This document shows positions 5,145 to 21,445 of a DNA stretch of 64,000 bases, piece after piece. Position 1 is the stretch's first letter. Each line of letters begins with the position of its first letter. The notes under the pieces were generated by a model. That model was not told where the DNA came from. It made no database searches and saw only the letters and a list, made by a program, of their open reading frames with translations. Both the position numbers and the translations under genes were made by a program. This DNA comes from Gemmatimonadaceae bacterium (GTDB lineage: Bacteria; Gemmatimonadota; Gemmatimonadetes; Gemmatimonadales; Gemmatimonadaceae): positions 1 to 64,000 of the forward strand of contig DATNEW010000001.1 of the NCBI GenBank assembly GCA_035606695.1, in the 5' to 3' direction.

Positions 5145-5798
5145 TTAGCGCACGTTCTTGTACAGGGTGATCCTGCCGTTCGCCACCCGAATGTCGCCTA
5201 TGTATGGGGGGAGCGGCAACGGCAACGCGTCATCGTCCACCCCGGCCGGGCGCGCGCCGTGCCCGAACCGCCCGATCAGCGTCGAGATCATGCCGCGCGG
5301 AATGCTGACGCCTCGCACCTTCACGTCCTGCATCTGAAACTCGCCCAGCCCTGGATGCACCACGCGAAGTGTACCCGTGAACTGCACTCGCTCCCGATCG
5401 CCGAGTATCCCGAGCGCGCCGAGTGCGCCGGCGCCGCCCAGGTCGGACAGTTTGACGTTCGCGCGCATCGAGAGTTGATCGCCGCTCACGAGCGCCTGAA
5501 TGCTATCCGTGGACGCCGGCAGCTGCCTCGCCAGCTCGCGAAATATGAATGAGGCAACGTCGCCCCCCGACAACGTCTGAAACACCGGTCCGCTGGGCTG
5601 GCTGAGCTTCGTCAACGCCGAACGCGTGCGATCCGCGCCGGCATCGGTGAGCGCTTCCCACGTCGGCGCGTGCGCCGCAACCGCCGGGTGCGAGCGGAAA
5701 CGCTCAGGCAACCAGCGGTCGCGCGTGAACCACCCGACCGCGGCCGCGATGACGAGCACCACGAGACATCCAAGGCGAGCAATGCAACCCATGCTCAC
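5145..5798 (-). CDS. Membrane-anchored protein of unknown function
   Basis: A 217-residue protein with a short N-terminal membrane anchor (about 7-24) and a soluble, probably periplasmic body. The body contains GDVASFIFRELARQLP, a stretch of small residues GGAGALGALGILGD, and a C-terminal part ending VANGRITLYKN. I do not recognise the family; it loosely resembles lipid-binding periplasmic proteins built from repeated beta segments. Its ATG overlaps the stop codon of thpR by four bases, so the two are translationally coupled. It lies between thpR and the response regulator on the same strand. Confidence 0.7.
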   Translation of the reverse strand: MSMGCIARLGCLVVLVIAAAVGWFTRDRWLPERFRSHPAVAAHAPTWEALTDAGADRTRSALTKLSQPSGPVFQTLSGGDVASFIFRELARQLPASTDSIQALVSGDQLSMRANVKLSDLGGAGALGALGILGDRERVQFTGTLRVVHPGLGEFQMQDVKVRGVSIPRGMISTLIGRFGHGARPAGVDDDALPLPLPPYIGDIRVANGRITLYKNVR

Positions 5799-6358
5799 GA
5801 GCTCCGGAGCGCAGCCGACATCACGGTCGTATATGTCGAGCCGCGCGGCGAAAGTTCACTGTGCATCAGATCGACCGATCGAATGATGAAGTCCGTGCGA
5901 TAGTCCGTCTGCCGAGCGGCCCGCGCCAACACCCGCAAGCGATCCTCCGACAGCGGATGCTTGATTCGCGCCAACGTCAGGTGCGGACGAAACGCTCGGC
6001 CCTCGACCTCGAAGCCGAGCTTTTCGCACGCGACTTCGACATCGTGGTGCAAGAGCTCGAGCCGCGGATCCTGCCCTACTCCCAGCCATACGACGCGAGC
6101 CTTCCGAAAGTTCGGGAACGCACCCACGCCGCTCAGGCTCATGAGCAGCTCCCGATGACGGCCCGCCACCGCGGCCAACGCCGCTTCGATATCCGGCACG
6201 CGCTCATCCTCGACCTCGCCGAGAAATTTGAGCGTCAGGTGCAGACCGGTCTCGCCGACCCATGAAAGATCGGGAGCACTTGCGCGCAGCGTCGTCGCCG
6301 CCGCGACGATCTCACGACGCACCTCGTGCGGCAGGTTGATCGCGAGAAATAACCGCAC
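5795..6358 (-). CDS. thpR: RNA 2',3'-cyclic phosphodiesterase (2'-5' RNA ligase family)
   Basis: A 187-residue protein of the two-histidine phosphoesterase superfamily. Both signature tetrapeptides are present: HLTL at 40-43 and HLTL at 126-129, spaced as expected. Family members hydrolyse 2',3'-cyclic phosphate ends of RNA; the biological substrate in bacteria is uncertain. It starts two bases after the larE stop and overlaps the next gene by four bases. This gives a compact larE-thpR-anchor protein operon on the minus strand. Confidence 0.92.
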   Translation of the reverse strand: MRLFLAINLPHEVRREIVAAATTLRASAPDLSWVGETGLHLTLKFLGEVEDERVPDIEAALAAVAGRHRELLMSLSGVGAFPNFRKARVVWLGVGQDPRLELLHHDVEVACEKLGFEVEGRAFRPHLTLARIKHPLSEDRLRVLARAARQTDYRTDFIIRSVDLMHSELSPRGSTYTTVMSAALRSS

Positions 6359-6360
6359 GC

Positions 6361-7182
6361 TCAGGCGTCGAGGACGGGCAATCCGGCGAGCCGATTCATG
6401 GCGCCGGAGCGAAAACCCTTCGGATCGATCTCGACGCGTTCATACCCCGCTGCCACGACCGCCGCCGTCAACTGGTCGCGGCGAGGCGCCACGGTCCACC
6501 AGCCCAACTCGGCGGCGGCGAGCTCGACGCGTGCGGTCGCGCCGAAATGGCGGACGCGGAGGTCGCCCGAAATTCCAAGGGCGCGCAGCGCCGCCTCCGC
6601 GCGCTCGACACGCGCCAGGCGCCCGACCGTGACGGGCGTCCCATAGGGAATCCGCGACGACAGGCATGGCGACGACGGCTGCTCCCAGGTCGGGAGTCCG
6701 CGCGCCCGCGAGGCCTCTCTGATCTCGACTTTAGAGAATCCTAATTCTGCCAGCGGCGACGCGATCCCGTTCTCGCGCGCCGCCTGCGCGCCGGGACGCC
6801 AGTCGTGCACGTCGTCCGCATTCGTCCCGTCCGCAACGACCTCGAAGCCACGCTCACGCGCCGCCGGCACGAGCCGCGTCCATAGCTCCGTTTTGCAGAA
6901 GTAGCATCGGTTCGTCGGATTCGCGGCGTAGCGCGGATCGTTGAGCTCGTCCGTATCGATCTCGAGCACGATCAGCCCAATGCGCTCGCCGATGTCGCGC
7001 GCGTTCTTCCACTGACTTTCAGGGTACGAGGCGCTGCGACCGATGATGGCCACCACGTTCTCGCGGCCGACCGCTTCGACGGCGACCGCGGCGAGATAGG
7101 CCGAGTCGACGCCGCCGCTGTAGCCGATGGCCAGGCGCTGCCGCGCCTGAAGCCACGAGATCAACCGCTGTTCCTTCGCCAT
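6361..7182 (-). CDS. larE: Sacrificial sulfur transferase LarE
   Basis: A 273-residue PP-loop protein. SGGVDS at 22-27 binds ATP. RCYFCK lies at 92-97, and PSSPCLSSRIPYG contains Cys173, which matches the cysteine that LarE gives up as dehydroalanine when it sulfurates the nickel-pincer precursor. LarE acts with LarB and LarC to build the nickel-pincer nucleotide used by lactate racemase and related LarA enzymes. No larA, larB or larC is nearby. The single cysteine (CLSSR) is the sacrificial rather than the CxxC, cluster-using type. Confidence 0.92.
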   Translation of the reverse strand: MAKEQRLISWLQARQRLAIGYSGGVDSAYLAAVAVEAVGRENVVAIIGRSASYPESQWKNARDIGERIGLIVLEIDTDELNDPRYAANPTNRCYFCKTELWTRLVPAARERGFEVVADGTNADDVHDWRPGAQAARENGIASPLAELGFSKVEIREASRARGLPTWEQPSSPCLSSRIPYGTPVTVGRLARVERAEAALRALGISGDLRVRHFGATARVELAAAELGWWTVAPRRDQLTAAVVAAGYERVEIDPKGFRSGAMNRLAGLPVLDA

Positions 7183-7295
7183 GCAACGAATTTATCATGG
7201 TGTCCGACCGCGGCGCGCGAAGGATGCGGGTGCCGGACCGGCGGCGTGTCTCTGCCGCAGGTTGTCTCAACAATGGGCCTCGACCCTCGAGCAAC

Positions 7296-9725
7296 ATGAT
7301 GCTTCAACAGGCAGCAGCAGGCATTCGTCGCGACACGGCGCTCGCGCTTCGCACGCTGCGACGCTCGCCGGGCTTCACCGTTGCCGCGGTCGCAATCCTC
7401 GCCCTCGGCATCGGCATGTCGACCGCCATGTTCACGATCTATCGGGCCGTGCTGGTCGAGCGGCTGCCGGTCACCGATCAGGCGCGTTTGCTCATCATGC
7501 ATCCGCTGGATCGCGGCGGGGCGCATCTCGACGTGCCGATGCCCTACCTCAAGGAGATGAAGCGCGACACGTCCGTCATCCGTGACGAGGCGGGCGTTTA
7601 TCACCTCGGGTCGATCCCTGTTCCGCTCCTCGATGGCGACCACACCTTCACACTCTCCGATGCGATCGTCACGTCGAACTTCTTCGATGTGCTGGGCACG
7701 CGGCCCATTCTCGGCCGAACGTTCCGCGAGACCGACCGGCCGGTCGGCGCGCCCACTGCCGTCGTCCTCAGCTACGCCGCGTGGCGGCAAGTGTTCAATC
7801 AAGATCCACTCGTCGTCGGCCGGACGTTCTTCACGCCGTATGCGCATGAGCGCGTGACCGTCGTCGGGGTCGCGCCACCGGGATTCGAGTATCCGACCGG
7901 CGTCGGCATGTGGGCGGCCGCGCACGACGATTTCCTGGCGCAGATGGATATCGTGGCGCGGCTGGCGAGCGGAGCCACGATCGCCGCTGCCCGCGCAAAT
8001 CTTTCCGCGCACATCGCGCGCTTGAACCCGTTCGTGCTCGAGGAGCCGCGAACGCCGCTGGCGATCTCGGGTGTAGAGGCTCATGCATTGTCGCAAGAAG
8101 TGTTGGGGTCGTCGCGCGCAACGATCGTCGTGCTCACGCTCGCCGTGGTGCTTCTCCTCGTCATCGCCTGCGTGAACGCCGGAAGCCTGGTCCTCGTACG
8201 AATGACGGGCAGAACGCGTGAGATCGCCGTGCGCCGCGCGATTGGCGCGAGCTTCGGCGCTATCCTGCAGCAGTTTCTTATCGAGAACGCACTCATTGGC
8301 CTCGCCGGCGGCGCCGCGGGCCTCGTCGCGGCGCAACTGCTGCTTCGCGTCCTGCTCGCCCTCGCTCCGTCGGAGCTGCCGCGCACCGACATGATTCGAA
8401 TCGGCGGCGCACCGATCGCCGAGGCCGTGCTGCTCACCGTTGCCGCGGTCATGTTGTTCGGTCTCGTGCCGAGCGTGATGGCCGCGGGCAGCGCCCCGTA
8501 CGGAGCGCTGCGCGAAGACGGCCGGTCCGGATCGGAAAGCGTCACACGCCGCCGCGCGCGACGCTGGCTCGTGTCGTCGCAGATCGCGCTCGCCCTGATC
8601 ATGCTCGCCGGCGCCGCCCTTCTCGCGCGCAGCCTCGATCACCTCCAACACATCGACCTTGGCTACCAAACCGAGCACGTTTCGATGGTCTCGGTGACTG
8701 GGCCGAAATCCTTCTTTGTTCCCGAGCGGATGAACGACGTAGTCGAAGCGTTGACGCGGCGCATCCGAGGGGTCCCCGGCGTCGTGGCCGCGACGCCCAT
8801 CGAGAGCGAGCCGTTCAAGGGGACGACGTTCTACATCATGAAAATCGCGCGCGCGGACCAGCCGCCGTCCGAGCGCGCGACCAGTCCGTTCATCCCGTTC
8901 GACTTCGCGGGCGAGGATTACTTTCGCACCTTCGAGATTCCGATTCTGCGCGGGCGCGGGTTCCTTCCGACCGAGATCGCTGATGCACGTCCGGTCGTCG
9001 TGCTCAGCGAATCGCTCGCGCGGCGGTTCTGGCCGAACGAAGACCCGATCGGCAAACAACTCGTGAACGTCTACGACTCGACGAGCACGCCACGCACGGT
9101 CATCGGCGTCGCCCGCGACACGCATTTCCGTACGCTGCGCGAAACAGCGCCCGTCATCTACGTGCCGTACACTCTGGTCCACGGGTTCAGTGGATATTTC
9201 GCGGTGCGGACGCGAGGCACATTGGAGGCGAGTCTGCCCGCCATTCGCCGCGCGCTGAGTGAAGAAAATCGCGGCGTCATCGTGTGGAAGACGACGACGA
9301 TGGATGCGCTGCTCGCCGGCCCGCTGGCGCGGCCCCGCTTGGCCGCGCTGATCCTCATGAGCTTCAGTCTCGCCGCGCTCGTGCTTGCCGCGATTGGACT
9401 GTACGGCGTCACGGCCGCGCTCGTCCGCCATCAAACTCGCGACATCGGCGTCCGGATGGCGCTCGGCGCGACGCCACGTGATGTGCGCCGGCTGGTGCTG
9501 AGCGACGCGATGCGCGTGGTCGGCCGCGGTGCCGCCGTCGGACTCGTCGGCGCGTTGCTCAGCACCCGATTGCTCGCGTCGCTGCTGTTCGGTGTCACGC
9601 CGCTCGACCCGTTGTCGTTTGGGGCGGCGTGCGCGATTCTGATCGCGATCAGCGCGTGGGCCGCGCTGGTGCCGGCACACCGCGCGACGCGCATCGACCC
9701 GGCGGAAGCACTGCGCGCGGAGTGA
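7296..9725 (+). CDS. Orphan duplicated ABC permease (ADOP/FtsX-MacB type)
   Basis: About 809 residues from ATG 7296 (MMLQQAAAGIRRD). An N-terminal LRTLRRSPGFTVAAVAILALGIG segment (split here by its motif order: amphipathic helix, then first membrane helix) opens the first MacB-like periplasmic domain, which has PxxxGRTF and VVGVAPPGFEYP. A three-helix FtsX block follows (about 270-400 and again about 690-800, with REIAVRRAIGAS and RDIGVRMALGAT). This doubled arrangement is typical of acidobacterial-type orphan permeases. No ATPase is adjacent, so its energy source and substrate are unknown. The open frame begins at 7197 but lacks protein-like sequence before 7296. Confidence 0.88.
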   Translation: MMLQQAAAGIRRDTALALRTLRRSPGFTVAAVAILALGIGMSTAMFTIYRAVLVERLPVTDQARLLIMHPLDRGGAHLDVPMPYLKEMKRDTSVIRDEAGVYHLGSIPVPLLDGDHTFTLSDAIVTSNFFDVLGTRPILGRTFRETDRPVGAPTAVVLSYAAWRQVFNQDPLVVGRTFFTPYAHERVTVVGVAPPGFEYPTGVGMWAAAHDDFLAQMDIVARLASGATIAAARANLSAHIARLNPFVLEEPRTPLAISGVEAHALSQEVLGSSRATIVVLTLAVVLLLVIACVNAGSLVLVRMTGRTREIAVRRAIGASFGAILQQFLIENALIGLAGGAAGLVAAQLLLRVLLALAPSELPRTDMIRIGGAPIAEAVLLTVAAVMLFGLVPSVMAAGSAPYGALREDGRSGSESVTRRRARRWLVSSQIALALIMLAGAALLARSLDHLQHIDLGYQTEHVSMVSVTGPKSFFVPERMNDVVEALTRRIRGVPGVVAATPIESEPFKGTTFYIMKIARADQPPSERATSPFIPFDFAGEDYFRTFEIPILRGRGFLPTEIADARPVVVLSESLARRFWPNEDPIGKQLVNVYDSTSTPRTVIGVARDTHFRTLRETAPVIYVPYTLVHGFSGYFAVRTRGTLEASLPAIRRALSEENRGVIVWKTTTMDALLAGPLARPRLAALILMSFSLAALVLAAIGLYGVTAALVRHQTRDIGVRMALGATPRDVRRLVLSDAMRVVGRGAAVGLVGALLSTRLLASLLFGVTPLDPLSFGAACAILIAISAWAALVPAHRATRIDPAEALRAE

Positions 9726-9734
9726 TCGAACTGT

Positions 9735-11849
9735 TCAGGGCGTAATTCCTTTCAACCACTGGTCCAGCCACCGCCGCTCGTTGATCATGCGATGCACGTT
9801 GTTCCACGACCCGCTGATCGAGTGCGGCATGTTGGCGTAGCGAATCATCTTCGCCGGTACGCCATTCTTCTTCAGCGCCACGTACATCTGCTCGGCCTCG
9901 GAGAACGGCACGCGCTGATCGATCTCGCCGTTGATGAACAACGTCGGCGCCTTCACGCGATCGGCATAGATGAGCGGCGACTGCTTCAACATGATCTCGC
10001 GCGCGCGCGGATCCCACGGCGAGCCGTAGAACTCCCGCTCCTTCGTGTTCGGGATGTCCGCGTTGCCGTAGTCGCTCAGCCAATCGACTATGCCGGCGCC
10101 CGGGATCGCCGCCGCGAAGCGATCGGGGTACTGCGTGATCAGCCAGTTCGTCATGAAGCCGCCGTACGAGTGGCCGATCGTGGCGACTTTCGTTCGGTCG
10201 ATGGGGTACTTGCCGAGCACGTAGTCGATACCCGCCATCACGTCCTGTCCATCTTTCGTGCCCCACGCACCCCACGTTGCCCACAGGAACTTCTCGCCGT
10301 ATCCCGTGGAGCTCCGAAAGTTGACCTCGAGAACGAAGTAGCCGTTCGCCGCCAGATACTGATTCTTGAAGTTGAATCCGTACTCGATGGCCGAGTGCGG
10401 TCCGCCGTGGTTGCTCACGACGAGCGGGTACGGTCCGCCATCGGCGCGATACCCGGACGGCAGGGTGAGCCAGCCTTCCACGGGCGTGCCGTCGCCACTG
10501 TTGAACTGGAGCCGGACGGACGGACTCAATTTCACTTCATTAATTGACGTATTGATATTAGAGATTTGTCGTTCATGCGCCCCGTCGATGTCGGCGACGA
10601 AGACCTCCGACAGGCGGTCGTCGAGGCCGACGGTGTACACGAGCTTCGTGAAGCCCTGGTCGAAGCCGATGTCGCCCAGCCGCCGCTCGCCCCTCGTGAC
10701 CTGCTCGACGTGGCCGGTCGCGGGAGAAACACGAAACAGGTGCGTCGTCCCACCGACGCCGCCGGTGAAGTACACGTATCGTCCATCCGGACTCCAGCGC
10801 GCGTTGTTCGGGATGTAGTCCCAGTCCGCCGTCAGATTCACCTGCTCTCCGCCGTTCGCCGGAATCACGATCAAGTCCACCGGCCCACCGTGGTCGAGGT
10901 GGCGAGCGATCACCATGTCGGTCGCATACTCGCGCGTCGCGAGAATCCACTTTCCATCCGGCGAATACTCCGCGCCCGTGTACGCGTAGTCGCGGTTCGG
11001 CGTCAGCCGCTCGAGCGTCCCGTCGAGCTTTGCGATCCAGATCTCATTGCGACCGTACGATCGTTCATTCCGATAGAGCGAATCCGCCGTGAACAGAACG
11101 CGCGACCCATCTCGGCTCCATTGCACGTCGAGCGGACGCAGGCCGAGCGACGTCAATGGGCGCGTCAGCGATGAATCGCCGTTCGCCGGCGACAGGATGA
11201 TCTCCTGCGGCGGAAAGAGCTGTGGATCGCGCCGGTTGGGGAGCGGAAACTGCTGCCCGTCGCGATGAAAATCCATCCAGTCGAATTCCACGCCCTTGAA
11301 ACGTTCCTCATGACGCTTCTCGAAATCCGACGCATAGGGATGCGCGATCGGCGCGGGCGCAAAATCGCGCACCGTCGCGACCCATTTTCCATCCGGCGAC
11401 GCGAGCGCCACTGAAGCGGCGCCACGCCCCCGCCCTCCGCGCCCACCTCGTCCGCCCTCGACCGCCGAGCCCGTTTGCGTCACGTTCGTGTCGGGACGAT
11501 CGACATGCGCTGGATCGATCGTGACGGTGTGCCCGCTCGTCGTGAATTGAAGTCGGTTGTCGGGGGTCCAGCGTGGCGCGCTCGCGCTTGCGGAACCGCT
11601 GACGTCGCGCGGCTGCGTCGATGCATCCGACGGGGCAAGCCACACCGCGACCGTTTGCCCGTTCGTCTGCTCGATGCGCGTCGTGACGGTGTACGAGACC
11701 CATCGCCCGTCGGGCGACAACGACGGCGAGCCGACCGTGGGGACGCGATAGTAGTCTTCGATCGCCAGTGGCCGCCCCGATTGACCATGCAACGCGCTGG
11801 AGCAAAGCACGGCGATAGTGGCGGCGGCGAGACACGGAATCGTTCGCAT
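9735..11849 (-). CDS. Secreted S9-family prolyl oligopeptidase-type peptidase
   Basis: A 704-residue exported serine peptidase. A signal peptide (MRTIPCLAAATIAVL, cleaved near 23) precedes a WD40-like beta-propeller with repeated LSPDGRWV, YSPDGKWI and WSPDGRYVYF. A C-terminal alpha/beta-hydrolase domain holds the catalytic triad: Ser561 in GHSYGG, Asp644 in GEIDQRVP and His676 in NMPHS. A Gly/Arg-rich linker GGRGGRGGRGRG sits near 135. Such enzymes cut short peptides after proline or release dipeptides or acylated residues; the specificity is not predictable. It runs convergent with the orphan permease, nine bases apart. Confidence 0.93.
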   Translation of the reverse strand: MRTIPCLAAATIAVLCSSALHGQSGRPLAIEDYYRVPTVGSPSLSPDGRWVSYTVTTRIEQTNGQTVAVWLAPSDASTQPRDVSGSASASAPRWTPDNRLQFTTSGHTVTIDPAHVDRPDTNVTQTGSAVEGGRGGRGGRGRGAASVALASPDGKWVATVRDFAPAPIAHPYASDFEKRHEERFKGVEFDWMDFHRDGQQFPLPNRRDPQLFPPQEIILSPANGDSSLTRPLTSLGLRPLDVQWSRDGSRVLFTADSLYRNERSYGRNEIWIAKLDGTLERLTPNRDYAYTGAEYSPDGKWILATREYATDMVIARHLDHGGPVDLIVIPANGGEQVNLTADWDYIPNNARWSPDGRYVYFTGGVGGTTHLFRVSPATGHVEQVTRGERRLGDIGFDQGFTKLVYTVGLDDRLSEVFVADIDGAHERQISNINTSINEVKLSPSVRLQFNSGDGTPVEGWLTLPSGYRADGGPYPLVVSNHGGPHSAIEYGFNFKNQYLAANGYFVLEVNFRSSTGYGEKFLWATWGAWGTKDGQDVMAGIDYVLGKYPIDRTKVATIGHSYGGFMTNWLITQYPDRFAAAIPGAGIVDWLSDYGNADIPNTKEREFYGSPWDPRAREIMLKQSPLIYADRVKAPTLFINGEIDQRVPFSEAEQMYVALKKNGVPAKMIRYANMPHSISGSWNNVHRMINERRWLDQWLKGITP

Positions 11850-11939: not shown

Positions 11940-13343
11940 TCAGAAATGCGGATGCAACACCCAGAACCGTGCATTCCAAGCCGCATTGCTCATCGCATAG
12001 CCGTAACTCAATGGCAGGTAATAGATGAAACCGATCAGCGCCAGGACGACGACGCCGCCATACAAGGTGCGCAGACGCATCCCACCGAGCCGCCACGGTG
12101 CCCCATCATCGTCAATGGATCGCGTCGCGACGCCAAACACATACGCGCCAAACGAGATCATGAGCGTCAGCGCGAAGAGATAGTGATACAGATACATCAA
12201 GCGCTTGATCGCCATGAACGGCACGTAGTTCAACAGGATGCCGCCGGCCAGAAACCAGAACGCAAACTCGCGCCCGCGCCACCGATCGCGCTGAAAGCGA
12301 TAGGACAACACGCCGCCGAAGAACGCAATCAATCCAGCCCACCACACCACCGGATTGCCAAGCAGGATGATCATCTGCTTGTCGCCCGGGAGACGCGGGT
12401 CGCCCCACAACGAGATCGGGTGCTTCATGATCGGCCACGTATACCACTTCGACGCGCCGGGATTGGTGAGACTCTCCAGCGCCTCGTTGCCGTAGCTCAT
12501 CGCGTGATGCATCTCCGCCAACTTCTTCCAATAGCTCAGATGCGCGTTCGGCGAATAATTCCGTGAGCCCCGCAGCGTCGCGCGAAAATCCATCGGCATG
12601 TAGACGTCGCCCGGACCGGTGTTCGTGAGCATTGCGAAATGAATCGCGAACGCGCCGCAATAGATCACGGCCGGTACGAGAACGAGCACGATTCCTTCGG
12701 CAAACGTGCGCCGCGTCGGCCGTACGGCGCGAAGAACTCCAATGCCCCACGCCGCGAGAATCATCCCGAGCGCTGACGCGCCCGTCCACTTGATGCTGAG
12801 CGACAGACCAGCGCAACACGCACTCGCGGCCAGCCAAGCCCACCGCGCGCGCCCAACTCGTGTGCGCGCGGCCAGGTACGCGGTGAGCGCCATCATCCCG
12901 AACGCGATGAGCATCACGTCGACGAGAATCAACCGCGCGATCACCAGCAGCGCGTTTTCGAGCAGCAGCATCGTTGCGCCGAGTGTCGCGACCCGTCGAT
13001 TGGCGCCGAGTTGTCGCAGCAGCAGATAGGTGAGCGGCACGAGCAACGTGCCGAATGTCGCGGGCAACACCCGCAACACCGGCTCGGCCACGGGCGTCGT
13101 CAGCTGCGCGGAGGGAATGTGGAGCAGCGCGGCCAGGACGACGTAGAGCAACCGCCCCACCGGCGGATGCACGTCGAAGAAATACGAGTGCGCGAGATAA
13201 TAGCCCGTAAATCGCTCGTAGTGCACTTCATCGAACACCACTGCGTTCGGCGTGAACAACCGCCAAAAGTGGAAGGCAGCCGACACCGCGGTAAGAATCC
13301 AGACTTCCGGGCGCGCACGAACGCGGGAGAGGAGCCTCGCCAT
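11940..13343 (-). CDS. PMT-type dolichyl-phosphate-mannose protein O-mannosyltransferase
   Basis: A 467-residue polytopic GT39 protein from ATG 13343 (MARLLSRVRARPEVW); the longer frame to 13451 would run into the divergent gene. The first periplasmic loop has FDEVHY with the catalytic-type Asp38-Glu39, followed by DVHPPVGR. A later LSIKWTGASALG and the C-terminal four-helix block with YLYHYLFAL match the PMT_4TMC region. There is no MIR domain, as in bacterial PMTs. It should move mannose from a polyprenyl-phosphate donor to Ser/Thr of exported proteins. Only 41 bp separate its start from the divergent GT-C gene. Confidence 0.88.
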   Translation of the reverse strand: MARLLSRVRARPEVWILTAVSAAFHFWRLFTPNAVVFDEVHYERFTGYYLAHSYFFDVHPPVGRLLYVVLAALLHIPSAQLTTPVAEPVLRVLPATFGTLLVPLTYLLLRQLGANRRVATLGATMLLLENALLVIARLILVDVMLIAFGMMALTAYLAARTRVGRARWAWLAASACCAGLSLSIKWTGASALGMILAAWGIGVLRAVRPTRRTFAEGIVLVLVPAVIYCGAFAIHFAMLTNTGPGDVYMPMDFRATLRGSRNYSPNAHLSYWKKLAEMHHAMSYGNEALESLTNPGASKWYTWPIMKHPISLWGDPRLPGDKQMIILLGNPVVWWAGLIAFFGGVLSYRFQRDRWRGREFAFWFLAGGILLNYVPFMAIKRLMYLYHYLFALTLMISFGAYVFGVATRSIDDDGAPWRLGGMRLRTLYGGVVVLALIGFIYYLPLSYGYAMSNAAWNARFWVLHPHF

Positions 13344-13384
13344 GCGGGGCAAGATAATGGCCGTTAAGTTGGCACTGCGAATCC

Positions 13385-15475
13385 ATGACGAAATCCAATA
13401 AGCGCGGCGCGCGGCGGGCGCGAACCACTCCGAGCACTTCGAGCGTCGCACGCGAACGACGGTGGCCGCTTCTCGTCACCGCGGTCGTCATCACACTGCT
13501 TGGGCTAGTGCCCATGGCGAATCTCGTCATGCCGGGCACGGCGCTCCCGTGGTGGAGCGAAGCGGTGCGCCGATGGCTCCTGTGGGGCGGCGCGACCGTC
13601 GCGATCATCATCGCGCTCGGTGCCGTCGCGCACGACGCGATCGAGCGCCTGCTCGAGCGCGCGACTCGGGCGCTGCTGACGCCGTCGCCGACGGTGTTCT
13701 CGATCGCCGTCGCCGCGGCGACGATCGCCCTCGCCCTTTACTTCGGCTGGCGATTGTTCGGCTTTCATCCGTCGACAGGAGACGAATTCTCGCAGCTGTT
13801 CCAGGCACGTCTGCTCGCGGGCGGCCATCTGTCCGCACGATCCGAGTCGCCGAGCGAGTTTTTTTCGACGCTCGAGATGCTCGATGCGCACGGGCAATGG
13901 TTTTCTCAATTCCCGATCGGCGGTCCGGCGCTGCTGACGATCGGCGTGTGGCTGCACGCTCCGTTTGTCGTGAATCCGATACTCGCCGGCATCGCCGCGG
14001 TGGCCGTCTATCGTTTTGTCGCGGCAACGACGGACGAACTGCTCGCGCGCGTCAGCGCGGCGTTGTTCTGTCTTTCCCCATTCGTGCTGTTCATGGCGGG
14101 CAGCGAGATGAATCACGTCGGCACGCTGACGTTCCTGTGGACTGCCGTCGCCGCGATACCATGTTGGTTGAAGCCTGACCAGGGCGCCCGCGCCGCCGGC
14201 GTCCGGGCCGCCGGCGTCATCGGCGCCGCGCTTGGCCTCGCCGCAACGATTCGGCCATACGACGCCGCGCTCGTTGGCGTCGTCGTCGTGATCTTCCAGC
14301 TTCGGGCCGCGTCGCGCGACGCGTCGCTGGCCAAATCGCTCATCGTCGAAGTCATTGCTGGCGCGATTCCCGTGGCCCTGTTGCTCGCCACGAACTGGGC
14401 GACCATCGGCGATCCGTTCACGTTCGGTTACGATGCGCTGAACGGTCCGGGCCACCGCCCCGGCTTCCACATCACGCCGATGGGATACGAGCACACGCCG
14501 ACGCGCGGCATCTATCTCATCTCCGCCTACCTGATGAAGCTCGACTTGGGCCTCTTCGGCTGGCCGGTGCCGGCGCTGTTACTGGTCGCCGCTGCGTTGG
14601 TATTGCAGCGTCGAGCGACGTCATGGGATATCCTGATGAACGGAATCCTTCTGCTGGTACTCGCGGGATACGCGGCGTACTGGTTCGAGGGCTACTTCGT
14701 CGGTCCGCGATTTCTGTATACGATCATCCCGATCGCGATCGTCTATACCGCGCGATTCCCCATCCTCGCGCGCGAGCGGTTGCGTGTTCCGGCGTTGCGC
14801 GCAGCCGTCGCATTGCTGCTGCCGATCTGCATTCTCGCCGCCTGGGCGATGCCCGCGAGCATCGAGAAGTTCTTTGGCGTTCAGGCACAGGCTGATACGT
14901 ACCATCGCGCGAGCGTAGGCGCTGCGATCGCTCGCGCGGTCGAGGCGAGCGGCGCCCGAAACGCCCTGGTCTTCATACCGGATGGATGGCACGCGCGGCT
15001 CGCGGCGCGGATTCGCGGATTGGGTCTTCGGCCGCTGGAGGCCGAGCGAGCCGCGACGTCCCTCGACGCGTGCACCCTCCAGCAAGCGCTCGACGAGGGC
15101 AACGTCAGCGCGCCGAACGACCCCGTCCGCCGTCGAGATATGCTCGCCGCCGCCATCGCTCGTGATCCCGCCGCGCGTTCCGTCGCCGGCCTTTCGACGC
15201 TCGATGCACTGGCGTTCGTTCCGGGCCGCCCGCTCCGGCCGGAATGCGAAGCCGAGCTCGCCGCGGGCTTCTCGAACGGCGCGAGCCTGGCGGAGTTACT
15301 ACCATATGAGCGCATAGCCGGTAGCGGCGAGCTCGGAGGTCCTGCGGTTTACGCGCGGGACTTCGGTCCGCGCGACGAACGGCTGCGGCCGCGGTTTGGC
15401 GACCGGGAGTGGCTCGTTGCCCGCGTGACGGGCTCCGGCGACCATGTCAGCGTGAGTCTCCAGCCTTACCGCTGA
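13385..15475 (+). CDS. Polytopic membrane glycosyltransferase-like protein (GT-C fold)
   Basis: A 696-residue protein with about ten or more membrane segments spread over 30-480 and a soluble C-terminal part of about 200 residues. The first large periplasmic loop contains STGDEFSQLFQARLL, where Asp133-Glu134 matches the acidic pair of GT39/ArnT-like GT-C enzymes, followed by FPIGGPALL. No other family signature is clear, so donor and acceptor are unknown. It is divergent from the PMT gene and ends 240 bp before the secreted pilin-like gene, so it may work in the same surface-glycosylation route. A weak hairpin (CCTTCAT/ATGAAGG, 15494-15517) follows the stop. Confidence 0.7.
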   Translation: MTKSNKRGARRARTTPSTSSVARERRWPLLVTAVVITLLGLVPMANLVMPGTALPWWSEAVRRWLLWGGATVAIIIALGAVAHDAIERLLERATRALLTPSPTVFSIAVAAATIALALYFGWRLFGFHPSTGDEFSQLFQARLLAGGHLSARSESPSEFFSTLEMLDAHGQWFSQFPIGGPALLTIGVWLHAPFVVNPILAGIAAVAVYRFVAATTDELLARVSAALFCLSPFVLFMAGSEMNHVGTLTFLWTAVAAIPCWLKPDQGARAAGVRAAGVIGAALGLAATIRPYDAALVGVVVVIFQLRAASRDASLAKSLIVEVIAGAIPVALLLATNWATIGDPFTFGYDALNGPGHRPGFHITPMGYEHTPTRGIYLISAYLMKLDLGLFGWPVPALLLVAAALVLQRRATSWDILMNGILLLVLAGYAAYWFEGYFVGPRFLYTIIPIAIVYTARFPILARERLRVPALRAAVALLLPICILAAWAMPASIEKFFGVQAQADTYHRASVGAAIARAVEASGARNALVFIPDGWHARLAARIRGLGLRPLEAERAATSLDACTLQQALDEGNVSAPNDPVRRRDMLAAAIARDPAARSVAGLSTLDALAFVPGRPLRPECEAELAAGFSNGASLAELLPYERIAGSGELGGPAVYARDFGPRDERLRPRFGDREWLVARVTGSGDHVSVSLQPYR

Positions 15476-15624: not shown

Positions 15625-15643
15625 CTGCAACAGATGGTTGCAG
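15625..15643. promoter_or_regulatory. 19-bp dyad CTGCAACA-GAT-GGTTGCAG upstream of the pilin-like gene
   Basis: A near-perfect inverted repeat (7-bp arms CTGCAAC/GTTGCAG, 5-base centre) about 80 bp before the ATG at 15715. Sixteen of its 19 bases match the dyad at 21274-21292, which sits in front of the paralogous gene at the other end of the cluster. This points to a shared operator or RNA hairpin. The remaining 239 bp of this gap show no gene. Confidence 0.55.
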
Positions 15644-15714
15644 TAGCACTGAGAGCGGCCAGGACGCATCCAGCGTCGAGCGTCAGCACTCACCACCTTT
15701 TTGATGGAGTTCAC

Positions 15715-16200
15715 ATGTCGCCGTGCACGAAGTTCGCCGCCGGCGCGGCGCTGATGCTCGTCGCTTTGAGCGGCGTCTCGCAGGCTCAGGCCACGCAAAC
15801 CGTCACGTTCGCGGTCCAGGAGATCAACCAGATCTCCGCGTCTGGTAGCCCGTCGCTGACGATCAGCACCGCCACGGCCGGTTCGCAGCCGACCCAGGCG
15901 ACCGCCACCGGTCATTACGCGATCACGACGAACGACTCGACGCGCAAGATCACGATCGCGCTGGATGACACGATGCCGACGGACGTCACCCTCAAGGCGA
16001 CTCTGGCTGCCCCGGCTGCGAGCGGTGCTTCCGCCGGTGCGTTGACGCTGACCAAGGTTGCGCAGGACGCGGTCACCGGCATCACGCAGGTCGCCGAAAG
16101 TAACCTGCTGATCAGCTATACACTGGATGCGCTTGTGACCGCTGGCGTGGTCAACAGCAGCACGCGCACGGTGACTCTGACGATCGTCGCGGGCCCGTGA
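15715..16200 (+). CDS. Secreted pilin-like beta protein, first paralogue
   Basis: A 161-residue exported protein from ATG 15715, chosen because GGAG sits five bases before it and a clean signal peptide follows (MSPCTKFAAGAALMLVAL, cleavage after AQA near 26). The mature part is Thr/Ser/Ala-rich and alternates beta-like segments, starting TQTVTFAVQEINQISASGSP and ending RTVTLTIVAGP. That pattern resembles an Ig-like subunit with a terminal beta strand. It is clearly related to the protein at 20738-21235 (shared TQT-F-V-INQIS-GSP block). Together with the chaperone and usher-like genes downstream, it is the best candidate for the major structural subunit. No database family was recognised. Confidence 0.72.
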   Translation: MSPCTKFAAGAALMLVALSGVSQAQATQTVTFAVQEINQISASGSPSLTISTATAGSQPTQATATGHYAITTNDSTRKITIALDDTMPTDVTLKATLAAPAASGASAGALTLTKVAQDAVTGITQVAESNLLISYTLDALVTAGVVNSSTRTVTLTIVAGP

Positions 16201-16212
16201 CTCGGTAAGGAA

Positions 16213-16240
16213 CGGCAGAGGGTGTCCAAGCCCTCTGCCG
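16213..16240 (+). other. Strong intercistronic hairpin
   Basis: CGGCAGAGGG (16213-16222) and CCCTCTGCCG (16231-16240) form a perfect 10-bp stem with an 8-base loop, 12 bp after the first subunit gene. No U-tract follows, so it is more likely an mRNA-stabilising or partial-termination hairpin than a full terminator. It could raise expression of the first subunit over the downstream genes. Confidence 0.6.
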
Positions 16241-16268
16241 CCGTACCGGCTCTCGAACGCAGCTCCTC

Positions 16269-16712
16269 ATGCGCACCGCCGCCCTCCTCGTGTTCGTTGC
16301 ACTCCTGCCAAGCGGCGGGCGACTGAGGGCGCAATCCAACAGTATTTCAATGACTGCCCCTGGGCCGCTGACGATCGTGTCGGCACCCGCGGGAAGTAAC
16401 CCGACCAGTGTCACCGATCAGTCGGCGCGATACTCGGTCACCGTAGTCAGCGGGCGGATGCGCATCACCGCTCGGCTCGACAATCCGCCTCCAGCCGGCG
16501 TGACGATGACGATCTCTCTGACGGCGCCGGCCGGCGCGGTCAGTCTGGGAACCGTCACGCTCACCAGCTCGGACCAGAACGTTGTTCGCTACATCCCAGT
16601 CGGCCAGTACCCCGGTCTGACTGTGACGCTCTCACTCGCGGCGACGGTAACAGCCGGCGCCGTGGGCTACCACGCCTCGAACGTCATCCTCACGCTGTCC
16701 GACGATCCCTGA
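16269..16712 (+). CDS. Secreted pilin-like beta protein, second subunit
   Basis: A 147-residue exported protein with a signal peptide (about 1-21, ending GGRLRA) and a mature domain of alternating beta segments: TAPGPLTIVSAP, ARYSVTVVSGRMRITA, TMTISLTAPAG and a last strand ASNVILTLSDDP. The overall plan resembles the 161-residue protein upstream (same length class, same place of LTAPAG and of the terminal strand), but identity is low. It ends three bases before the chaperone-like gene, so the two are cotranscribed. It may be a minor or tip subunit; the function is inferred from context only. Confidence 0.65.
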   Translation: MRTAALLVFVALLPSGGRLRAQSNSISMTAPGPLTIVSAPAGSNPTSVTDQSARYSVTVVSGRMRITARLDNPPPAGVTMTISLTAPAGAVSLGTVTLTSSDQNVVRYIPVGQYPGLTVTLSLAATVTAGAVGYHASNVILTLSDDP

Positions 16713-16715
16713 GTC

Positions 16716-17522
16716 ATGCGTCGCTTCTATCATCTTGCGGCCGTTGTAGTTACGGCCATTTCGTTCGCGCGGCCCGCGGCAGCGCAGGTGGCCGTTCTGG
16801 GTTCTGGGGTCTTCGAGCACGATGCGTCGCCCGGTCAGACCTATCAAGGCCGCGTGCTGGTCCGAAACGACACGAAGGAGCCGCAGGAGGCCAAGGTTTA
16901 TCAGACCGATTACAGCTTCGCCGCGGACGGGCGGACGATGTACGACGCCCCAGGCACCTCTCGCCGATCGAACGCGAAATGGGTCTCGGTCTCGTCGAAC
17001 TACCTGGTGATTCCGCCGGAAACTACGGTCCCGGTCACGTTCTCAGTCGCCGTCCCGGCTGACTCATCGCTTCGCGGCACGTACTGGAGCCTGGTGATGA
17101 TCGAGGCGATCGTCCCTGGTTCGCCGGAGTCGCGAAAAGCCAACGCGCGCGTCCAGGTCGGCTTGAACGTGACCACCCGCTACGCGACTCAAATCGCGAC
17201 CAACGTCGGGACCGGCACATCGCATCTGGCGTTCGACAGTTTGATGGTTACTGACGCACAGAACGGTGCTCGCGGACTGCGGTACGACTTCATCAATACT
17301 GGCGAGCAAGCCCATCGTTTCACGATGTCGCTCGAGCTCTACAACGAAGCCGGCGAGCTCGTCAAAACGGCAAAGCAAACTCGCGGCCTGCTGTATCCGG
17401 GCACAGCGGCGCGACAGCAGTTCGAGCTCGGTTCGGTTCCTCACGGCGCCTACACAGCGGTCCTCGTTGCCGATGGCGGCGGCGACCAAGTGTTCGGCGG
17501 TCAGTTTAAGGTGACCTACTGA
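16716..17522 (+). CDS. PapD-like periplasmic chaperone candidate
   Basis: A 268-residue exported protein: signal peptide about 1-24 (ending ARPAAAQ), then two Ig-like halves. The first has GQTYQGRVLVRNDTKEPQEAK (in outline: strand, turn, strand) and YLVIPPETTVPVTFSVAVP, the usual 'P-G-x-x-x' edge of fimbrial chaperones. The second begins near 165 with LAFDSLMVTD and GLRYDFINTGEQAHRF. The size and two-domain layout fit PapD-like chaperones, although the classical Arg/Lys anchor pair is not obvious. Its place between small subunits and the large outer-membrane protein supports a chaperone role; a surface Ig-like protein is the alternative. Confidence 0.62.
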   Translation: MRRFYHLAAVVVTAISFARPAAAQVAVLGSGVFEHDASPGQTYQGRVLVRNDTKEPQEAKVYQTDYSFAADGRTMYDAPGTSRRSNAKWVSVSSNYLVIPPETTVPVTFSVAVPADSSLRGTYWSLVMIEAIVPGSPESRKANARVQVGLNVTTRYATQIATNVGTGTSHLAFDSLMVTDAQNGARGLRYDFINTGEQAHRFTMSLELYNEAGELVKTAKQTRGLLYPGTAARQQFELGSVPHGAYTAVLVADGGGDQVFGGQFKVTY

Positions 17523-17553
17523 GCCGGGCGGTTGACCGGAACAGATCCCACGT

Positions 17554-20500
17554 ATGCCTCCGCCTCTGCGGTTTCGGACCCTTCTGGGGCTCTTCTGGGG
17601 CATGGCTTTGGCCAGCCGAGGGCTGCTTGCGCAAAATGCGGAGCGGCCTTCGCTGGCTGTTGGCGTTGATACGACCAAGCTCGCGATCGAGCCTGGGGCG
17701 GCGTTCACGATGCGGGTCACAGTCCGCGACCAGGCGTCCGCCGACCACGACGCTCTCCTAACAACAAAAATTCCAACGGGTTGGCAGCTCTTGTCGGCGC
17801 CGACCAAACTTCACGTCAAGGCCGGCGGGCGCGCCGTCCAACTCGTTCAGATCGTCGTGCCGCACGATGCGGCCGCGGGCGATTACGAGGTCTTGCATTC
17901 CGTGCGCGCCCCGGGCCTCGATACTGACCTCGTTGCTCGTTCGACCGTTTCCGTTCGTGTCCGGCGCAATCTCACCGTGACGCTGATCGACCAGCCGTAT
18001 TTCGCCGCGAGCGGGACGACGTCGCACGCGACGTTCCTCGTCTCGAACCACGGTAACATTGTCACGCGCGTGCACTTGCGAATCAGCGCGGAGCGGGAGA
18101 TTTCGGCACATGTGGACCAGATCGGTGAGCTCAAGCCCGGCGAGAGCAAGGTCAGCGATGTCGTCTTTGATGCCGGCGAGCTGTTCGGCGAGCAGGAGGC
18201 GAGCCGGCACATCAAGCTGATTGCCGAGCCGGATGGCGGCCTGAGCAGCGACAATGACACGTCGCCGCAAGCGGTCGCGGCCGTTCGCGTAGTGGCGCGG
18301 GGAAACGATGCCGGGCAGCCTTGGCATACCTTGCCGCTGTCGCTCGACCTGTCGACGATTCAAACTCAGCGGTATCAGTCGGCGACGAATACGAGCTCGC
18401 TCAACTACAAGCTCAGCGGCTTTGGCCCGATCGCCGAGGGAAGTAAGACGACGGTCGATTTCCTGGCGCGGGGTCCTCAATCGTCTTCGTCGCCGTTCGG
18501 TGAGCGTGCTGAATATCGCATCGGACTAACGGGTGAGAACTTCTTGGTACGGGCGGGCGACCAACTCTTCCGCCTGACGCCGCTCACAGAAGCGGGAGCG
18601 TTCTCGAGCGGACTGAACGGTTCGGTTTCGCACGGCAGCCTGATCGTTGGCGCCATGGCAAATCGGCAGCGCTGGTTTCACGATGGCTCGACGGAGCAGG
18701 CCGGTTTCATTGGATTCAATCCAAGTCAACTGTTGTCGATCAGTGGCAACGTTCTTCGTGGAAGCGAGTTCGATGGTACGCTTGGATCGCTGTACTTTCG
18801 GAGCGTTGTCGCGAAGCGGAACGTGTTCGAGATGGAGCGTGCGCAGGGATTATTTGGGATCGGAAGTAAGACGTCAGCGACGTTGGCGCGAGCAGCTGGT
18901 GATCATGGATGGGTCGCCTTTGATTTGCGACACTTCTGGGCGGACAGCGCATATCGAGGTGGGACGGGTGATCGCGGGCAGGATTTCGCATCGCTGGCGG
19001 TGCGACCGACGCAATGGTTCCGAGTCGCGGCTCAGATCGCGGGAAATACTTTAGATTCACCTTATAATTTAAGTATTTTCAACGATTTACGAAGTCGATC
19101 TCATGTTGAACATGATGCTTCCATCACCCTCGATATCGCCGGCCTCATCACTGCCGGCGTTCGCCGTTTCTACGCCCCAACCACCCCCACACTCGGCGAT
19201 CCAAACACCAACGGCACCGAGAATTCAGGTTGGGTGAGAATTGCTAAGTCATTTGGCAGATTGATGTTGGCTGGATCTGTCGAACAAGGCACATTAACCA
19301 AGAACGCCGAGCTCATCCCCCGCCCCTTCAGCGTCACCCGCGTCCAAACCGCCCTGCGACTCTCCTCCTCCATGACCGTCAGCGGCTTCGTCGAACGCTC
19401 AACGGGCCAACGCATCTTCGCCCCAAACGCGCAAACCGCCGTCTCCGCCGGCGCCACCGCCTCCCTCCAGATCCACTCCCTCACACTCGGCGCCTCCGCA
19501 AACGCCGCCCCGAGCTCACGTTTCCACGTCCTCCCGGACTCCAACTGGATGATCCCGGGCGCCACCGCTTCGATCGATGGGAACGCAGCACTGACGCTGT
19601 CTGGTGGCCGCCGCTTACAACTCGAGGTCCGAGTCGCCAGCAGCGGTCCGGGACGCCCCGTCGCATCCGTCGCCCGCCTGTCGTACAACGTGCCATTACG
19701 GCTGCCGATCGGACGCTCCCGCAGCACCGGTCGAGTCGTCGGGCGAGTGTACGACGGGGAGTCACACGCAGGAGTCGCCAACGCACTCGTCCGTGTCGGC
19801 GATCGAATGGGGCTCACCGATGACCAAGGCTTCGTAACCTTCGGATCAATGGCCCCCAATAAATATCCGGTCTTCGTCGACCTCGGCGAATACCAAGTCG
19901 GGGGATCCGGATTGGCGAACGACGCCCAGGAAATCTCTCCCACCCCAGGCCGCACCACCACCATCGACCTTCGCGTCACCCGAATGGGACGCGTCGTCGG
20001 CCGCATCGATCTGTACGAAAGGATCGAATCCGCCGCGCTCCACTCCGACAGTTCTGGCTACCGCCTCGCTCGCGGACTCGGTGGGATCGTGCTGAGATTC
20101 ATGAACGGAGCCGAAGAGCGACACGCCATCACCGGTCCGGATGGTACGTTCGAGCTCCACGACGCTCGACCCGGCATGTGGCAGCTGATCGTCCCGACGT
20201 CTCAGCTTCCCTCGCAGACCTTCGTCGACGGCGATTCAGTCCGCGTCATCGATGTGAGCCCGGGCGAACAAAAGGCGCTCGAGCTGAAAATCCTTCCGCG
20301 TCAGCGGAAGATTCTGCCCCTCGACGCACCGCCAGCAGCGGAGCCGGCCGGCTCGCCAAAACCGAAGATGCCGTCGCTCGCGGCGCCGATAACCTCGCGG
20401 CCGGCCATGAGTCCACTGACTGCCGACGCGATCGCGTCCACGCCGTCCGTCGCGAGGCTCCCAGCCATACGACCCGTCGCGCCGCCGGTCATCCCGCGCG

Positions 20501-20754
20501 CACCTGTGGCGAAACACGCAACGCACTCGCTGCACCGTGGCCACTCGGTGCCGACGCGGCGAATCGCTCGCCGGCCGACGCCTCGAGCCCCAACCGACTC
20601 GCCGGTTCGGAGTCCGGTTTTCGCTCCCGCCCGGTCCGGCGATCACGCGCCGGCAGACTCGAACGCGCCGGTGGCGTGGCCGTTCGCTCGGAGCACATCG
20701 ACGTTCAAATGCACGACTCGCTGGGAGAACGACGGACTTACATGCCGTCCGTGA
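17554..20754 (+). CDS. Usher-like outer-membrane protein with Ig-like and carboxypeptidase-regulatory domains
   Basis: A 1066-residue exported protein. A signal peptide (about 1-26) is followed by two Ig-like domains (about 30-130 and 135-240). A long beta-rich segment without cysteines comes next (about 250-690), with many short alternating strands of the kind found in barrels. Two carboxypeptidase-regulatory-like domains follow (about 710-790 GRVVGRVYDGESHAGVANA; about 815-920 GRVVGRID...GPDGTFEL). A Pro/Ala/Arg-rich tail (930-1040) ends in two cysteines. The order matches chaperone-usher pore proteins with C-terminal Ig plugs. Codon use turns AT-rich around 19045-19110 and 19220-19300. The last 17 bp overlap the convergent gene. 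Confidence 0.65.
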   Translation: MPPPLRFRTLLGLFWGMALASRGLLAQNAERPSLAVGVDTTKLAIEPGAAFTMRVTVRDQASADHDALLTTKIPTGWQLLSAPTKLHVKAGGRAVQLVQIVVPHDAAAGDYEVLHSVRAPGLDTDLVARSTVSVRVRRNLTVTLIDQPYFAASGTTSHATFLVSNHGNIVTRVHLRISAEREISAHVDQIGELKPGESKVSDVVFDAGELFGEQEASRHIKLIAEPDGGLSSDNDTSPQAVAAVRVVARGNDAGQPWHTLPLSLDLSTIQTQRYQSATNTSSLNYKLSGFGPIAEGSKTTVDFLARGPQSSSSPFGERAEYRIGLTGENFLVRAGDQLFRLTPLTEAGAFSSGLNGSVSHGSLIVGAMANRQRWFHDGSTEQAGFIGFNPSQLLSISGNVLRGSEFDGTLGSLYFRSVVAKRNVFEMERAQGLFGIGSKTSATLARAAGDHGWVAFDLRHFWADSAYRGGTGDRGQDFASLAVRPTQWFRVAAQIAGNTLDSPYNLSIFNDLRSRSHVEHDASITLDIAGLITAGVRRFYAPTTPTLGDPNTNGTENSGWVRIAKSFGRLMLAGSVEQGTLTKNAELIPRPFSVTRVQTALRLSSSMTVSGFVERSTGQRIFAPNAQTAVSAGATASLQIHSLTLGASANAAPSSRFHVLPDSNWMIPGATASIDGNAALTLSGGRRLQLEVRVASSGPGRPVASVARLSYNVPLRLPIGRSRSTGRVVGRVYDGESHAGVANALVRVGDRMGLTDDQGFVTFGSMAPNKYPVFVDLGEYQVGGSGLANDAQEISPTPGRTTTIDLRVTRMGRVVGRIDLYERIESAALHSDSSGYRLARGLGGIVLRFMNGAEERHAITGPDGTFELHDARPGMWQLIVPTSQLPSQTFVDGDSVRVIDVSPGEQKALELKILPRQRKILPLDAPPAAEPAGSPKPKMPSLAAPITSRPAMSPLTADAIASTPSVARLPAIRPVAPPVIPRAPVAKHATHSLHRGHSVPTRRIARRPTPRAPTDSPVRSPVFAPARSGDHAPADSNAPVAWPFARSTSTFKCTTRWENDGLTCRP

Positions 20755-21235
20755 TCGTGAAGACGATGTGACGCGTTCCCTCGACGACGACGCCCGATGT
20801 GATCGCCGCGTCCAAGCGATAACGAATCGGGAGATCCGCCGCGGCCGTTCTCGATACGTTCGCGACGACGTCGACCGGTGTCGTCCGCAACACCTGAAGT
20901 CCGGCGCTCGCCGCGCCGGTCGGGGCGCCGAGTGAGACGGAGAGCGTCAGTCCAGCGGGGAGATCCTGGTCGAGGTTCGCCGTGATTTTCGCGCCGGTCG
21001 AATTGGTCGTCACGCTCCACGTACTGCCGTCGACCGTAACGCTCGACAACGGTCCGCCGGGAATCGCGTCGCGCACGGTCAGCACGGGACTTCCCTGCAC
21101 CGAGATCTGGTTGATCGGCTCAACCCGGAACGATATCGTCTGCGTCGCGCGCTGCCCCGCCAGATAACAGGGCGACGCGATGAGAAGGGCCGCGCACACC
21201 GCGGCGGCGCGGCAGGTGATTGGGATCACGCGCAT
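20738..21235 (-). CDS. Secreted pilin-like beta protein, divergent paralogue
   Basis: A 165-residue exported protein on the opposite strand, started at ATG 21235 (MRVIPITCRAAAVCAALL, signal peptide cleaved near 30); the open frame to 21373 adds no signal-like sequence. The mature part aligns along its length with the 161-residue protein at 15715: TQTISFRVEPINQISVQGSP, then ...KITANLDQDLP and a terminal RHIVFTITDGM. It closes the cluster, tail to tail with the usher-like gene (17-bp overlap), and has its own upstream dyad. An alternative or phase-switched subunit is possible. Confidence 0.72.
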   Translation of the reverse strand: MRVIPITCRAAAVCAALLIASPCYLAGQRATQTISFRVEPINQISVQGSPVLTVRDAIPGGPLSSVTVDGSTWSVTTNSTGAKITANLDQDLPAGLTLSVSLGAPTGAASAGLQVLRTTPVDVVANVSRTAAADLPIRYRLDAAITSGVVVEGTRHIVFTITDGM

Positions 21236-21269
21236 ACGTGGAACATATCTTACCACACCCTCGACTTGA

Positions 21270-21296
21270 GTGCCTGCAACAAAGTGTTGCAGGCAC
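21270..21296. promoter_or_regulatory. Perfect dyad GTGCCTGCAACA-AAG-TGTTGCAGGCAC
   Basis: A 12-bp perfect inverted repeat with a 3-base centre, about 35 bp upstream of the minus-strand start at 21235. Its core (21274-21292) matches 16 of 19 bases of the dyad before the plus-strand paralogue at 15715. It could be a protein-binding operator or a leader hairpin. The remaining gap up to comM (to 21445) shows no gene. Confidence 0.65.
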
Positions 21297-21445
21297 CGGG
21301 CTTCGGCCAACCGTGGCGAAATCGAGCCACTAGACGGTGATCGTACCGACGCGATCACCAGGCCGCGGCGCATCCCTGGTGAGTCGTTGTGAATCGTCGC
21401 GCCGACGTCGCGATTTTCTTCGGCGTCGTAGCGGCGGTGGAAGCG

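Follow-up and report, generated by a model that had tools for sequence, protein, structure and literature searches.

The Gene Cluster

A stretch of 64,000 nucleotides from the genome of a Gemmatimonadaceae bacterium (assembly GCA_035606695.1, contig DATNEW010000001.1, positions 1 to 64,000), here called the window, carries a cluster of five open reading frames (ORFs) with a total span of 5.7 kb, each of which starts with a signal-peptide-like N-terminus. They encode three small secreted beta-rich proteins (S1, S2, and S3), a chaperone with two immunoglobulin-like (Ig) domains, and an usher-like outer-membrane protein. The cluster is very probably a divergent chaperone-usher-type route which makes disulphide-free fibres by donor-strand exchange. 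A preliminary description of this DNA had pointed to a chaperone-usher-like gene set, and such a set is indeed present; the block recurs in the bacterium's own genome and at about 100 loci. Position 15625, noted there as the start of the cluster, is not a gene boundary. The features are the following.

15715-16200, + strand: S1, secreted beta-rich subunit whose N-terminal extension resembles a donor strand, the proposed principal subunit of the fibre
15790-15825, + strand: mature residues 1-12 of S1 (ATQTVTFAVQEI), the N-terminal extension and proposed donor strand, from the model and the homologue alignment
16196-16255, + strand: strong hairpin in the RNA that separates S1 from S2, with its main stem at 16213-16240, from folding energy
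16269-16712, + strand: S2, homologue of S1 without the N-terminal extension, proposed tip or initiator subunit
16716-17522, + strand: periplasmic chaperone with two Ig domains (P0003, 268 residues), distant PapD relative of type A
17554-20754, + strand: usher-like outer-membrane protein (P0004, 1066 residues)
17653-18294, + strand: N-terminal Ig-like pair of the usher (NEW3 type and ASH/HYDIN type), residues about 34-247, where classical ushers have PapC_N
18322-19716, + strand: predicted usher beta barrel, residues about 257-721, 26 DSSP strands, without an insertion of plug size
19786-20298, + strand: two C-terminal carboxypeptidase-regulatory-like (prealbumin-type) domains, residues about 745-915, at the position of the usher domains CTD1/CTD2
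20299-20751, + strand: Pro-rich C-terminal tail of the usher
20738-21373, - strand: S3, a further subunit of the S1 type that bears an extension, its gene converging on that of the usher, with the likely start at 21235

Scans of the single window proteins against NCBIfam name no family, and Pfam and NCBIfam together give no chaperone, usher, or pilin name, in keeping with the earlier remark that these families were not recognised. Sequence searches of the PDB find neither a pilin nor a PapD relative. In the nearly complete genome there is no match to PF00345 (PapD_N) or PF00577 (Usher), so that no canonical system is hidden nearby.

The Subunits

Two of the three small proteins had earlier been described as related. 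Their relatedness is evident, but it extends to all three: a single profile matches S1, S2, and S3 with expectation values (E) of 1e-50, 1e-47, and 9e-55, and the alignment agrees. The mature proteins contain no cysteine, in keeping with the absence of subunit disulphides that had been remarked upon.

The structural model of S1, built from 60 homologues, has a predicted local distance difference test score (pLDDT) of 96.5. Its core strands occupy residues 13-134, and residues 1-12 are extended and unpaired and form no strand. The best PDB structures for this model are the CfaE pilin domain (Z 8.4), CS17 (8.3), CfaB (8.2), and CooA (8.1), followed by lower matches to FimA, PapA, FimG, and the Csu pilins (Z about 6 for Csu). 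The alignments begin at S1 residue 12-13, leaving out the extension, and finish at the last residues of the pilins, so S1 has no strand beyond theirs. As to the missing strand proposed earlier, S1 is predicted to adopt a pilin fold which ends at the last strand of the pilins, with the N-terminal extension free. In the extension, positions 5, 7, and 9 are hydrophobic in all of the 60 homologues (100%) and positions 6, 8, and 10 in 3-10% of them, a perfect V-x-F-x-V alternation in S1. As judged from sequence, this is the pattern of a donor strand, and in the model S1 is predicted to be an incomplete Ig fold with an N-terminal donor extension.

The distance between the predicted cleavage site and the core has a median of 1 residue in S2 and 15 in S1-type proteins. 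If the rules of known systems apply, a subunit that carries no extension can act only as the acceptor of a strand, and S2 would for this reason sit at the tip or the start of the fibre.

The hairpin 3′ of S1 has a folding energy of −41.6 kcal/mol (z = −4.8). Segments with z below −2 follow 46 of 92 S1 genes, 18 of 90 chaperone genes, and 1 of 49 S2 genes, an imperfect control since the segments downstream of chaperones and S2 are mostly coding. The hairpin is possibly an attenuator or a stabiliser which lifts S1 over the downstream genes, and its pattern fits a surplus of S1 as the main subunit. Promoter and terminator scans give results at chance level.

The Chaperone

The window chaperone belongs to a family of 86 members, here called type A, none of which matches the Pfam PapD_N model. 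Type B, a sister family found within the same class, has its own usher-like partner and cysteine-bearing subunits, and its members do pass PapD_N (28.8 and 23.1 bits, cut-off 23). The type A and type B profiles match each other with a probability (P) of 99.7% (E 4e-26), and the type B profile matches the known chaperones with P 98% (E 2e-13); compared directly with the known chaperones, type A reaches P 75.5% (E 2.4e-5). The type-A chaperone joins the PapD superfamily through type B, by homology at the level of profiles.

The anchor residues are different. In the profile alignment an invariant Lys160 of type B falls on Lys112 of FimC/PapD. The Arg8/Lys112-type carboxylate anchor is missing from type A, where the Lys112 position is Ala or Gly in 86/86 members, which bears out the earlier observation that no classical chaperone anchor is evident; an invariant Arg155 lies two residues N-terminal to this position. 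Arg84, Trp89, Trp124, Ser125, and Gln159 are also invariant or nearly so. It has been reported that Arg89 in chaperone strand F1 is the signature of the archaic and alternative clades (PMC4654587); at this position, set by motif and profile alignment, all 86 type-A chaperones have instead an invariant Trp124-Ser125. From these alignments a third kind of anchor arrangement in type A is a fair guess. A Pro in chaperone strand D1 is described as invariant across the superfamily (PMC4654587). Pro occupies the likely strand D1 position in 57/86 type-A homologues, and the window protein has Ser94.

The Usher-Like Barrel Protein

The 1066-residue protein had been described as a combination of Ig-like, barrel-like, and regulatory parts, and both the Pfam domains and the AlphaFold2 model agree with this. 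The only Pfam names are generic Ig-like or regulatory ones, NPCBM_assoc/NEW3 (E 4.5e-7) and CarboxypepD_reg (E 3.8e-6). The model, built with 17 homologues, has a mean pLDDT of 82.9 over residues 28-930 and shows, in order, a pair of Ig-like domains at the N-terminus, a large barrel, and a pair of beta domains at the C-terminal side, the latter two elements being those expected of an usher. The predicted barrel has 26 strands, or 24 when the short pair at 320-337 is taken to be an extra hairpin, and the earlier expectation of a large usher barrel is borne out. Among all PDB chains, Foldseek places FimD at ranks 1-5 (E 4.5e-15 to 6.9e-14) and finds PapC at 1.6e-11.

A profile of 65 usher homologues matches ten known ushers with P 87.5% (E 3.6e-6). 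The aligned region comprises the latter half of the barrel together with the first C-terminal domain and its TD-x-x-G motif, and the controls (FepA, BtuB, LptD, and reversed profiles) all remain at P ≤2%. The sequence profiles add weight to the usher assignment beyond the shape of the barrel.

Two parts of a classical usher are missing. Segments that connect barrel strands reach at most 18 residues in the window protein and 33 in any of the 65 homologues; all of them are short, so there is no plug domain. PapC_N has no match in the 1066-residue protein, where NEW3 and ASH-type Ig domains are found instead. In some homologues (locus L133, positions 6763-10065, and loci L079 and L080) peptidoglycan-binding SPOR (E 1.5e-30) or LysM-like tails replace the Pro-rich tail. 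These tails suggest a C-terminus on the periplasmic side, where ushers have theirs, and that the homologues which bear them are anchored to peptidoglycan.

Conservation and Spread

S1, S2, chaperone, and usher form a conserved block. A second complete copy is found in the same genome (locus L004, positions 5794-10283, contig C26), and its usher is 29% identical to that of the window. An OmpR-type response regulator gene adjoins this second cluster and also neighbours the clusters at L010 and L029. The usher is present in 4/6 genomes of the genus, and the chaperone profile finds matches in 32/246 genomes of the class. Genome contigs searched with only the usher sequence of the window give no match, and the chaperone profile proved the right probe. 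A scan of GTDB with this profile yields 351 related places, 80 of which were fetched.

Among 101 chaperone ORFs, a number which includes some loci fetched twice, an usher-like gene lies at most 700 base pairs downstream in 97, and 2 of the rest are at contig ends; a subunit gene lies upstream in 88. The linkage of the block is far beyond chance, and the gene order, for which a survey in Gemmatimonadota had been suggested, shows strong conservation. The block is also found beyond that phylum and is not a speciality of it. According to record titles, the carriers comprise Gemmatimonadota, Bacteroidota (including Ignavibacteria and Rhodothermales), several deltaproteobacterial groups, Gammaproteobacteria (Chromatiaceae), Verrucomicrobiota, Planctomycetota, Spirochaetota, Riflebacteria, Zixibacteria, Krumholzibacteriota, KSB1, Armatimonadota, Aminicenantes, and one Bacillota bin. 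Deinococcus plasmids also bear it, and the related loci are spread over more than a dozen phyla. The chaperone tree groups strongly by phylum, with Gemmatimonadota as a single clade (100/100 support), which argues for an old system inherited mostly vertically.

Several variants are observed among these loci. At three proteobacterial loci (L132:5492-5947, L124:4308-4790, and L153:5408-5869) the S2 slot is filled by a different small secreted family with the motif W-x-E-T-I-D...GAGSD, likewise without an N-terminal extension. At L030:5174-9391 (- strand) the usher ORF continues in frame into an isocitrate dehydrogenase ORF, which may be a real fusion, a read-through, or an assembly error. The chaperone homologue on plasmid 2 of Deinococcus deserti (L166:5983-6753) is annotated “FimB/Mfa2 family fimbrial subunit,” likely a misannotation that apparently stems from a marginal Mfa2 match (E 1.7e-4), and the RefSeq name of the Deinococcus usher derives from the regulatory-like domain only. 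The type B clusters (L032-L036, L038, and L039), which belong to the sister system, often contain one more small secreted protein, which ends in SFRAVR. A further type C cluster (L042:6526-11049) combines an usher-like protein that has a different N-terminal domain with a chaperone that is a distant relative of PapD (P 94%).

In the window, a protein O-mannosyltransferase (PMT) gene lies two genes from the cluster (11940-13451, - strand, E 2e-40). Glycosylation by its product was considered as a part of the system and dropped, as the sister cluster L008 has no such gene next to it; its position is not conserved among the sister clusters.

Comparison with Known Systems and Alternative Readings

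The conserved linkage, the secretion signals, the fold matches, the distant chaperone and usher homology, and the pilin fold with a donor extension are computed here. The system is outside every recognised chaperone-usher clade, because the plug, the usher N-terminal domain, and both known chaperone anchors were looked for and none of them was found. With the classical pathway (FimC/FimD, PapD/PapC) it shares the subunit-chaperone-usher order, the large barrel with two beta domains, the two-Ig chaperone, and, in the sister type B, a retained Lys112-type anchor; it differs in the Lys112 position and nearby Arg of type A and in the lack of a plug, of PapC_N, and of any Pfam match.

Some results weigh against a chaperone-usher assignment. 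No window protein itself passes the Pfam chaperone, usher, or pilin models. The S1 profile shows no similarity to known pilins (P <5% for FimA, EcpA, and spore-coat subunits). The only solved sequence relative of the type-A profile (86 members, alignment A11) is a WxL-interacting protein (WxLIP) of Enterococcus, EfmWxLIP1 (E 2e-4). The whole-chain template modelling (TM) scores of the usher model against its Foldseek matches are low (0.29), and VIA-align places the outer-membrane conduit MtrB, a barrel of 26 strands, first (Z 19.1, 406 residues), followed by the barrel of FimD (Z 15.6 over 347 residues) and by PapC (Z 15.2), so that barrel shape alone is not decisive.

These results bear on three other readings. 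It is unlikely that the cluster encodes a WxL/WxLIP-like surface complex, in which the two-Ig protein stays bound and holds the small proteins at the envelope, the barrel acts as an anchor or exporter, and no polymer is made. Besides the match to EfmWxLIP1 structures, 25/86 type-A members weakly match the Pfam model WxLIP_PGBD (best 3.6e-4), and the SPOR or LysM-like tails would suit an anchoring barrel. WxLIP (DUF916-DUF3324) likewise has two Ig domains and is encoded beside small secreted WxL proteins, into which a hairpin strand of WxLIP is predicted to insert (PMC10599100). This likeness could mean common descent or merely similar Ig folds. WxLIP is however membrane-anchored, occurs in monoderm bacteria, and has no usher, whereas P0003 lacks a C-terminal transmembrane helix (it ends ...FGGQFKVTY), the window subunits contain no WxL motif, and the usher-like barrel gene is almost always linked. 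In addition, the donor-strand-type extension of S1 would be needless for a monomeric ligand, and the chaperone is tied more strongly to PapD, via type B. A secretion conduit with an MtrB-like or porin-like barrel, through which beta-rich proteins would leave as monomers, assisted by a periplasmic chaperone and without forming a fibre, is very unlikely. The large barrel, the MtrB match, and the missing plug speak for it, but MtrB is part of an electron-transfer complex, has no chaperone or subunit genes, and lacks the C-terminal prealbumin-type domains; whole-chain Foldseek and the controlled profile comparison, which includes the domain after the barrel, favour ushers, and the subunits resemble pilins.

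Least probable of the three is that the cluster simply belongs, unrecognised, to the archaic (sigma) or the alternative (alpha) clade. The alternative pili of CS1/CFA-I type provide the best structural matches of S1 (CfaB, CooA, and CfaE; Z 8.1-8.4) and share with it an N-terminal extension of about 12 residues and a subunit without a disulphide. The archaic systems (Csu, spore coat U) are similarly widespread, assemble fibres under the lead of a chaperone, and include the Csu pilins among the S1 matches; they have been reported in Deinococcus-Thermus (PMC4654587), and the window family also occurs in Deinococcus. Against both stand the replacement of the signature Arg89, the poor profile match to archaic and alpha ushers (P 15.5% and 2.7%), and the different usher architecture, with Ig-like N-terminal domains and no plug. 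No SCPU-domain subunit is present, and profile comparison with EcpA, EcpB, and EcpC of E. coli gives no match.

Proposed Mechanism and Significance

A divergent chaperone-usher-type route, very probable as stated above, would operate as follows; secretion, polymerisation, the fibres, and donor-strand exchange are the steps that we infer. S1, S2, and S3 would traverse the inner membrane, and the two-Ig chaperone would cap their incomplete Ig folds. The usher-like barrel would receive the chaperone-subunit complexes at its N-terminal Ig domains, its C-terminal domains, or both, and export the growing chain. Each S1 would place its N-terminal extension of 12 residues in the groove of the preceding subunit. 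S2, accept-only for lack of an extension, would begin or cap the fibre, and S3 may be an alternative or terminal subunit. S1 would be the repeating subunit, probably overproduced given the hairpin after its gene. A fibre or surface layer made by a divergent usher route had been proposed earlier; the divergent usher route is supported and a fibre would follow from it, but the surface-layer alternative has found no support.

A wider reading is possible, although doubtful. The family may be a separate plug-less chaperone-usher lineage of more than 12 phyla, largely vertical and of an age that may equal or exceed that of the archaic clade. Its chaperones would connect PapD-type chaperones with the Gram-positive WxL-interacting proteins, and donor-strand-type handling of subunits would accordingly go back to a single origin for bacteria with one membrane and those with two.

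No description of this chaperone-usher-like family was found in the open-access literature, and the system is apparently undescribed. According to published surveys, classical and alternative chaperone-usher systems are confined to beta- and gamma-proteobacteria, and archaic ones to proteobacteria, Cyanobacteria, and Deinococcus-Thermus (PMC4654587, PMC9452303). If the proposed reading is true, Gemmatimonadota, Bacteroidota, Verrucomicrobiota, Planctomycetota, Spirochaetota, and many candidate phyla would also make such fibres, from genes which are now annotated as hypothetical or as “carboxypeptidase regulatory-like domain-containing protein.” Cultured carriers, namely, Deinococcus deserti (strain VCD115, DEIDE_RS15110 to RS15120), Thiocapsa marina, and Thiococcus pfennigii, make the system testable. 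An usher without a plug raises the question of what gates the pore, and the possible link to WxLIP would join two surface-protein systems that have been thought unrelated.

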